Shown here: piece by piece, positions 21,025 through 22,839 of the stretch
How the letters are laid out: every line of letters starts with the position of its first letter
How positions within the stretch are numbered: the first letter of the stretch is position 1
Assembly: GCA_944325105.1 (NCBI GenBank)
Contig: CALUYW010000002.1
Coordinates: 62,001 to 126,000, forward strand
Source of the DNA: Candidatus Gastranaerophilales bacterium
GTDB lineage: Bacteria; Cyanobacteriota; Vampirovibrionia; Gastranaerophilales; Gastranaerophilaceae
Direction of reading: 5' to 3'
Length of the DNA: 64,000 bases
Made by a program: the position numbers and the translations under genes
Notes under the pieces: model-generated
What the model was told of the DNA's origin: nothing
Seen by the model: only the letters and a program-made list of their open reading frames with translations
Database searches by the model: none

Positions 21025-22233
21025 TTATTCAATAATTTTATCTACAACGCCGGCACCAACTGTTCTACCGCCTTCACGGATAGCGAATCTCATACCTTCT
21101 TCAATAGCAACAGGAGCGATAAGTTCAACTTCCATTACTACGTTATCACCAGGCATAACCATTTCGCCGTCAAATTTGATAGAACCGGTTACGTCAGTTG
21201 TTCTGATGTAGAACTGAGGACGGTATCCGGGGAAGAATGGTGTATGACGTCCGCCTTCGTCTTTTGTTAATACGTATACGTTAGCAGTGAATTTTGTGTG
21301 TGGGTGAATTGTACCGGGTTTAGCAAGTACTTGACCGCGTTGGATATCTTTTTTATCGATACCACGAAGTAGAGCACCAATGTTGTCACCTGCTTGACCT
21401 TGGTCAAGAAGTTTTCTGAACATTTCTACACCTGTTACAGTTGATTTTTTAGTTTCGCCGAAACCAACGATTTCAACTTCATCACCAACTTTAACAACGC
21501 CACGTTCTACTCTGCCTGTAGCAACTGTACCACGACCTGTGATAGAGAAAACGTCTTCAACAGGCATCAAGAAAGGTTTGTCTAGGTCACGTTCGGGAGT
21601 TGGGATGTAGCTGTCGATAGCATCCATAAGTTCCCAAATTTTATCAACCCATTTATCTTCGCCGCGTTGAATGCTTGGGTTAGCTTGAACAGCTTCTAAA
21701 GCTTTAAGAGCTGAACCTCTGATGAAAGGAATGTTGTCACCGTCAAATTCGTAAGATGATAACATTTCACGAACTTCCATTTCAACTAAATCAAGAAGTT
21801 CTTCATCATCAACCATATCGCATTTGTTCATAAATACAACTAGTCTGGGAACACCAACTTGACGAGCAAGTAGAATGTGTTCACGAGTTTGAGGCATAGC
21901 ACCGTCAGTTGCTGCAACTACAAGAATTGCACCGTCCATTTGAGCTGCACCTGTAATCATGTTTTTAACGTAGTCAGCGTGGCCGGGGCAGTCAACGTGT
22001 GCATAGTGACGCGCATCTGTTTCATATTCAACGTGAGCAGTTGAAATAGTAATACCACGTGCTTTTTCTTCGGGAGCTGCGTCGATTTCGTCGAATTTCT
22101 TAGCTTCGGCTTTACCTGCAGCAGCCATACAACCTGTAATCGCAGCTGTTAAAGTCGTTTTACCGTGGTCAACGTGACCAATGGTACCGACGTTAACGTG
22201 CGGTTTGGTTCTTTCAAATTTTTCTCTAGCCAT
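21025..22233 (-). CDS. tuf: Elongation factor Tu
   Basis: 402 residues; delivers aminoacyl-tRNA to the ribosome with GTP. G1 is [10 protein letters not shown]2 is the ARGITIS segment, G3 is DCPGHADY, and G4 is NKCDMVDD. The three-domain length is normal, and the end is [10 protein letters not shown] as in all bacterial EF-Tu. Its codon use is clean and the gene is less AT-rich than its neighbours, as expected for a highly expressed gene. SD GGAGA lies 9 nt before the ATG. It is the last gene of the tRNA-Thr/Thr/Tyr operon. Confidence 0.98.
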
Positions 22234-22291
22234 AAGATAGATTCTCCTTTTTCTTATTGTTTTTTGGTTGGTTGGTTTTATTTTAAAAGTG

Positions 22292-22374
22292 TGGGCAGGG
22301 GTGGATTCGAACCACCGTAGTCGTTAGACGGCAGATTTACAGTCTGCTCCCTTTAGCCACTCGGGCACCTACCC
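22292..22374 (-). tRNA. tRNA-Tyr(GTA)
   Basis: 83 nt. The acceptor stem GGGTAGG pairs with CCTGCCC (with one T-G pair). The anticodon loop ACTGTAAAT carries GTA. A long variable arm marks a class II tRNA, as expected for bacterial tRNA-Tyr. The T-loop GGTTCGAATCC is normal. CCA is not encoded. The gene is intact although its first 14 bases are repeated upstream at 22537-22550. Confidence 0.95.
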
Positions 22375-22558
22375 ATATTAAATTTTAAAATGTGCGGTTA
22401 TTTTATCTTCGGCGCCGCTCCTGTCAAATTTCAAAATGAAATTTGTTCGCTCGCTCTGCTCGCAACGTCGCCATCGATTGGTTACATCTTTCGCTTTCTC
22501 AACGAAAGCTCAAGATTAACACACGGCTTACGCTTTTCGGGCACCTACCCATATTAAA
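22361..22558 (-). repeat. 22-bp direct repeats of the tRNA-Tyr 5' end flanking a ~154-bp element
   Basis: Copy 1 is 22361-22382 and copy 2 is 22537-22558; they are identical over 22 bp, covering eight leader bases and the first 14 bases of tRNA-Tyr (GGGTAGGTGCCCGA). The enclosed 22383-22536 segment is richer in GC than its surroundings. It holds two inverted repeats: CAAATTTC/GAAATTTG (22425-22445) and GCTTTC/GAAAGC (22493-22509). No ORF of note fits. The layout looks like the insertion of a small mobile repeat (MITE- or REP-like), or a decayed integration site, with the tRNA regenerated at one end. Confidence 0.65.
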
Positions 22559-22610
22559 ATAAATTTCTAACACCGCTACCGTAGCTAAGCTCGCTCTTGC
22601 AAAAGTATTT

Positions 22611-22682
22611 TGCCCTTGACGAGATTTGAACTCGTGGCCTCTCCCTTACCAAGGGAGTGCGCTACCCCTGCGCCACAAGGGC
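22611..22682 (-). tRNA. tRNA-Thr(GGT)
   Basis: 72 nt. The acceptor stem GCCCTTG pairs with CAAGGGC. The anticodon arm CTCCC-TTGGTAA-GGGAG carries GGT. The T-arm is CACGAGTTCAAATCTCGT-like. Discriminator A; no CCA is encoded. Confidence 0.95.
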
Positions 22683-22747
22683 ATAAACTACCCTTTGACG
22701 GGTGCGGCATTAATTAAACAATTTTAAAAGTGCAATTGTAGAAAATC

Positions 22748-22819
22748 TGCCGATGGAGGGAATCGAACCCCCAACCTACGGTTTACAAAACCGTTGCTCT
22801 ACCATTGAGCCACATCGGC
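22748..22819 (-). tRNA. tRNA-Thr(TGT)
   Basis: 72 nt. The acceptor stem GCCGATG pairs with CATCGGC. The anticodon arm ACGGT-TTTGTAA-ACCGT carries TGT. Discriminator A; no CCA is encoded. It is the first product of the tRNA-tuf operon. Confidence 0.95.
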
Positions 22820-22839
22820 ATTTCTTCATGATATGTACA

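Follow-up and report, generated by a model that had tools for sequence, protein, structure and literature searches.

A truncated copy of the tRNA-Tyr start upstream of tuf as a probable unit of RtT-like tRNA-end repeats

The segment that precedes tRNA-Tyr in the genome G000 is probably one unit of a wider class of tRNA-end repeats, resembling the RtT repeats of E. coli and produced by insertion or template switching with a duplication that rebuilds the tRNA. We would put the probability of this reading at roughly 0.55. The structured repeat that fills the unit, here called E, is dispersed; sites are found both empty and filled; tandem copy number differs; and cassettes resemble one another between unrelated tRNAs. 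The earlier note on this DNA described the tRNA-Tyr locus, but missed that E is one cassette within a wider class of tRNA-end copies, most of which are without E.

The tRNA-Tyr locus

The window is G000:C2:62001-126000, that is, the whole 64-kb stretch of DNA analysed, from a genome of 1.76 Mb. The features of the locus, in transcript order, are as follows.

22747-22820, minus strand: tRNA-Thr (tgt)
22610-22683, minus strand: tRNA-Thr (ggt)
22559-22609, minus strand: rest of the spacer from tRNA-Thr (ggt) to the upstream copy
22537-22558, minus strand: upstream copy (S5), consisting of 8 nt of leader and tRNA-Tyr nt 1-14, truncated (repeat search)
22417-22536, minus strand: E-family repeat core of 120 bp (AAAGCGTAAGCC ... 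ACAGGAGC) with two hairpins (model match G000:C2:84417-84536 and alignment)
22486-22516, minus strand: hairpin I of E (ATCTTGAGCTTTCGTTGAGAAAGCGAAAGAT; predicted fold, coordinates counted by hand)
22425-22445, minus strand: hairpin II of E (CAAATTTCATTTTGAAATTTG; predicted fold, coordinates counted by hand)
22375-22416, minus strand: stretch of tRNA-Tyr leader that separates E from the gene; the final 8 nt fall within the 22-bp repeat
22361-22382, minus strand: downstream copy of the 22-bp repeat, consisting of 8 nt of leader and nt 1-14 of the intact tRNA-Tyr
22291-22374, minus strand: tRNA-Tyr (gta), intact
21025-22233, minus strand: tuf (identified by sequence as elongation factor Tu), lying downstream within the presumed operon

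The transcript thus runs from the two tRNA-Thr genes through the truncated Tyr start, a 154-bp segment and tRNA-Tyr to tuf, and gene order and strand suggest that all of these are cotranscribed. A repeat search over the window returned the exact 22-bp direct repeat already reported in the earlier note, at 22361-22382 and 22537-22558 with a spacing of 176, covering the first 14 bases of tRNA-Tyr and 8 nt of leader and enclosing the 154 bp. It is the sole 22-mer that occurs twice within 1 kb in the whole window, and it is therefore not a matter of chance. The enclosed segment had been called GC-richer, which is true only to a modest degree (0.429; neighbouring spacers have 0.392, 0.317 and 0.246, and the window as a whole 0.368). 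Two inverted repeats had also been described. Stems of 5+6 bp and 9 bp are predicted (fold z-score -2.15), but a search for gapless inverted repeats of at least 12 nt lists none for the segment. In an Rfam scan of the window, the tRNAs alone pass.

Fifteen genomes of the genus were inspected at tRNA-Tyr, of which 13 were readable (G001 and G004 were unreadable). S5 and E are present together in eight: G000, G003, G005, G007, G011, G012, G013 and G014, the unit being divided between two contigs in G003 and cut at the contig end in G012. In G009, E lies beside tRNA-Tyr and runs to the end of the contig, and in G014 there are two E cores head to tail. E is absent at tRNA-Tyr in G002, G006, G008 and G010, with G006 representing an empty site whose Thr-Tyr spacer measures 20 nt. 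The idea that relatives might lack the segment is therefore borne out at four of the 13 readable loci, but the other nine carry E. In the other genera G019 and G029, tRNA-Tyr has an S5 of nt 1-16 with a different cassette and, by eye, an antisense stretch that is longer than 6 nt but imperfect, which indicates that the Tyr slot can hold content other than E.

It is worth adding that the Thr-Tyr spacer of G010 (L120) and G002 (L122) holds a different structured repeat (CTGCGAAGCCAGGGC...GACCGCCGTTGCGAG), without a tRNA copy.

The E repeat family

A covariance model built from 11 copies of E, applied with an E-value cut-off of 0.01, found nine matches in G000, matches in all 15 members of the genus, and matches in 24 of 58 genomes overall. 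The search of the genome and its relatives that the earlier note had suggested thus identifies the inner 120 bp of the segment as a dispersed repeat. Copies have the layout 5'-GCGYRAGCC, hairpin I, GGCGACGT, hairpin II, ACAGGAGC-3'. The hairpins vary from copy to copy, covariation is slight (a double change in 2 of 23 pairs), and tandem copies are common, with a period of about 100-113 bp. Sites include positions after stop codons and the groES-groEL spacer (gene names by eye).

An insertion sequence or MITE was considered and rejected. In the alignment the ends of E are AAAGCG.. and ..GGAGC, without the inverted ends of such elements, and in place of a short target duplication of fixed length the flanking duplication at tRNA-Tyr varies in length between 22 bp (the window) and about 56 bp (G005).

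Three further observations concern the distribution of E. The groES-groEL spacer of several genus members holds a short E-like hairpin (loci L003, L079, L091, L094 and L107). G013 has four similar E copies directly after the stop codons of an apparent repeated gene family (L074-L077). Contigs C26 and C27 of G000 (L071, L072) share one stretch, in which two E-related units stand in tandem and the near flanks are identical; this is either a duplication or an assembly effect.

Repeats of tRNA ends at other tRNA genes

The arrangement at tRNA-Tyr is one case of a more general one. In a 5' unit the order is leader, S5 (a copy of the tRNA from nt 1 to between nt 14 and 19), a hairpin cassette, usually A5 (the reverse complement of the D-arm region), the leader again and the intact tRNA. 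The 3' unit mirrors it, with trailer, A3 (the reverse complement of the T-arm), hairpins and S3 (a copy of the tRNA 3' end). At tRNA-Tyr of this genus the cassette slot is occupied by the dispersed, structured 120-bp E. Many other units have an antisense stretch; for the tRNA-Tyr unit of this genus it is 6 nt at best, GGCGCC at 22411-22416 in the leader of the window's tRNA-Tyr being a vestige of an antisense arm at most. With a clear A5 absent, it is S5, the breakpoint and the slot that would place the Tyr unit in the class.

Own-end copies were counted as matches of at least 12 bp within 320 bp of the tRNA gene. In G000, where 30 of 36 RF00005 matches were read, 16 of the 30 genes carry an own-end copy of some kind (5' end upstream or 3' end downstream). 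These comprise 12 sense and 10 antisense matches upstream and four of each downstream, and controls with other tRNAs gave 0, 4, 2 and 1 of 836 for sense upstream, antisense upstream, sense downstream and antisense downstream, respectively. Across six genus members, 68 of 134 tRNAs have an own match; the G000 figure is the cleanest, because stretches of G005, G013 and partly G006 and G007 were chosen partly for their position at contig ends, and in G014 21 of 34 matches were read. For the upstream sense copy the count in the six is 50/134 against 9/3338 controls. For the antisense copy it is 37/134 against 37/3338, the latter not negligible because D-arms resemble each other.

The breakpoints, expressed in the D-loop and T-loop numbering of the tRNA, are recurrent. 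Eleven of the 12 upstream sense copies in G000 start at nt 1, and most upstream copies run from there to nt 12-19. Downstream sense copies reach the last nucleotide, most of them from a start lying 11-17 nt short of it; those at Lys-ttt of G007 and G014 (44 nt) and at Trp of G006 (31 nt) are longer. The antisense arms measure about 11-17 nt and lie over the D-arm region or, for Ala, Arg-tct and Phe of G014, over about nt 15-30. At tRNA-Lys(ttt) on G014:C22 (L168) and G007:C15 a further tRNA-Lys copy adjoins the gene; an insert splits this copy, and its 3' part of 44 nt is intact.

The tRNA-Arg(tct) array of G014 (G014:C5:1-1700, running off the contig end) has at least five tRNA starts, two with E and two with an antisense-bearing insert, so that the E slot recurs at a second tRNA in the same array as units of the antisense type. 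The relatives are mostly fragmented metagenome bins whose contigs break in arrays, and copy numbers are therefore as assembled. In G000, four of 30 tRNAs lie less than 200 bp from a contig end (C1, C12, C17), against 0.19 expected, and the sequence there is within units, as expected if arrays stop the assembler.

Conservation and spread

The tRNA-Val(tac) unit recurs in the genus as one to three tandem copies behind one promoter-like sequence. For other tRNAs presence varies by species: Lys-ttt has a 3' unit in G000, a 5' unit in G006 and both in G014. The antisense arms track species differences in the tRNA itself at Ala-tgc, Leu-gag and Val-gac.

Cassettes of different tRNAs resemble one another more often than shuffled ones, with 16 of 372 pairs scoring at least 10, against 4 of 1116 shuffles, although three of the 16 are among Pro tRNAs and may be simple paralogy. 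A hairpin common to the Arg, Ala and Val cassettes keeps six of six pairs in all ten sequences, five of which have G-C in place of A-T, and the hairpin of the Trp cassette keeps 7, 7, 6 and 7 of 7 pairs; these counts are descriptive, the sequences having been picked as similar.

A restriction of the units to this genus was considered and dropped, since units are seen in other genera of the family. A first sample of these had none (G020 0/10 and G024 0/11 tRNAs). In a second, 19 of 69 tRNAs had an own-end match: 7/14 in G019, 3/19 in G016, 3/5 in G023, 2/3 in G015, and 2/5 in each of G027 and G029, with no own-end match in G021 (0/3), G022, G026 or G032 (0/5 each). Among 45 tRNAs of the few genomes sampled outside the family there was no 5' copy, and G045 had two 3' copies. 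To judge from these samples, the 5' kind appears to be patchy within one family.

Comparison with known systems

The closest known system is the RtT repeat found in the tyrT operon in E. coli (RF00391 in Rfam, and called rttR in the K-12 record), in which tandem units adjoin a tRNA gene, as they do here. The RtT unit ends in a 19-nt sense copy of the tRNA 3' end, preceded by an antisense T-arm stretch and hairpins, like the 3' units described above, and the Tyr unit likewise contains a sense copy (nt 1-14) of the end of the adjacent tRNA. RF00391 also scores above the gathering threshold at the E. coli lysT cluster, after all five tRNA-Lys genes (L312). The difference lies in the side. Among 47 E. 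coli tRNAs, 12 have a 3' copy and none has a copy starting at nt 1 or an upstream antisense match of at least 12 bp, whereas the units here are mostly on the 5' side and occur at roughly half the tRNA genes that were read. Run against 14 loci of G000, RF00391 gave no match at E 0.5, although it matches the E. coli loci, and no known Rfam family was found at the tRNA-end units.

RtT repeats are treated in passages of PMC8250186 and PMC7657543. No description of 5' tRNA-end repeats was found in the open-access full text searched. The 3' kind is thus already known from E. coli; for its mirror image on the 5' side, at so many tRNAs, the literature searched offers no precedent.

Folding predictions

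Folding was predicted for 27 units, one of which was dropped. With its own unit, the acceptor-stem probability of the tRNA falls below 0.1 in 26 of 26 units, whereas the mean is 0.52 when the unit of another tRNA from the same genome is substituted; the measure is already low for the tRNA alone at Pro-ggg of G000 (0.07). Before the tRNA exists, A5 is predicted to pair with S5 at 0.3 or above in 20 of 26 units. A cruder calculation, covering 28 units, agreed with this save for Phe of G014 (0.87 with more of the array). Each tRNA is thus predicted to be trapped by the antisense arm of its own unit. Here the units had been chosen for complementarity, so that pairing is partly built in, and equilibrium folding leaves RNase P and the speed of cotranscriptional folding out of account.

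In the window, the upstream copy at tRNA-Tyr and the real 5' strand are predicted to compete for pairing with the 3' acceptor strand (0.53 for the copy, 0.44 for the real strand), which bears on an earlier suggestion that the truncated start might affect processing. In five relatives the upstream copy scores from 0.00 to 0.62, but the real start prevails in G005 (0.99) and G007 (0.96).

These predictions bear on the proposal that the leader units are RNA switches that regulate tRNA maturation, with A5-S5 pairing during synthesis of the leader leaving the tRNA free to fold and A5 otherwise pairing with the D-arm and trapping it. Besides the folding itself, it draws on the position of the best promoter-like match, which precedes the first copy in 22 of the 25 cases listed, and on arms that follow tRNA changes and hairpins that keep their pairs. 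Against it stand, in addition to the selection of the units and the limits of equilibrium folding, the gain and loss of units between close species and the six of 26 units in which S5-A5 pairing is below 0.3. We consider such a switch unlikely.

Origin of the units

An origin of the units at the DNA level is most likely. In the scheme that we favour, insertion or template switching with duplication, the D-loop or T-loop part of a tRNA gene would be where a structured cassette inserts or the polymerase switches template. The tRNA end and its leader or trailer would be duplicated in the process, leaving an outer copy as scrap and an inner copy that rebuilds the working gene. Selection would tolerate the scrap because the tRNA is intact. 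The direct repeats would then let copies expand and contract, the array varying by recombination, and template switching at a later stage could maintain the match between arms and tRNA. Arms that track tRNA differences, together with compensatory changes in the hairpins, are signs of constraint, and argue against the outer copy being scrap. The earlier note had proposed a mobile repeat inserted in the tRNA with the gene rebuilt. This agrees with the dispersal of the inner 120 bp, the empty site in G006 and the intact tRNA-Tyr, but the duplication of the tRNA 5' end is not peculiar to the insertion at tRNA-Tyr.

Quasi-palindrome mutations are products of template switching with a duplication-inversion-duplication layout. 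The units share with them a duplication with an inverted copy between; they differ in their recurrent breakpoints and in hairpin cassettes shared among different tRNAs. The likeness has a bearing on whether unequal recombination or repeated template switching made the arrays by plain local rearrangement, with no insertion and with E in the spacer by chance. The S5/A5 layout, the tandem arrays and the match of the arms to the local tRNA are all what this would give. Nevertheless, cassettes not derived from tRNA turn up beside more than one tRNA, and at many tRNAs the breakpoint is in the D-loop or close to the T-loop, so that rearrangement alone is unlikely as a full account.

Movement by a Y1 (RAYT) transposase or a reverse transcriptase, as in a REP-like or retro-element, is improbable. 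E is short, structured, dispersed and often tandem, as are REP and BIME, but with 100-125 bp and two hairpins it differs from them, and no mover was found: a Y1 transposase is present in one of the 15 genus genomes and missing in the other 14. Reverse transcriptase occurs in 25 of 58 genomes and is absent from six of the 15 in the genus (G001, G003, G007, G008, G011 and G013), of which G007 and G013 have units; both enzymes are thus absent from genomes that carry units.

A scar of a phage or integrative element, or the decayed integration site that the earlier note had offered as an alternative, would account for a direct repeat at a tRNA gene, but is very improbable, given no match in 50,697 phage records, a segment that is a short hairpin repeat of 154 bp without genes, the same layout at many tRNAs, and a repeat at the tRNA 5' end whose length differs from lineage to lineage where attL and attR would share a constant core.

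Biological meaning

The RtT of E. coli looks like an isolated oddity. Here its layout, together with a 5' mirror image, recurs across the tRNA genes of a bacterial family and is gained or lost from one species to another, so that many loci become available for comparing how tRNA-end repeats arise. The folding models carry a prediction of their own, namely that a tRNA should end up trapped by its own transcript if nothing intervenes. An RNA switch, if true, would be a more interesting outcome than an origin at the DNA level. In its strongest form, which we hold to be rather improbable, a gut-bacterial family would control or proofread its tRNAs singly by antisense arms in their leaders, the decoy start and the antisense D-arm forming a kinetic on/off folding switch, with cassettes that spread between tRNA genes.
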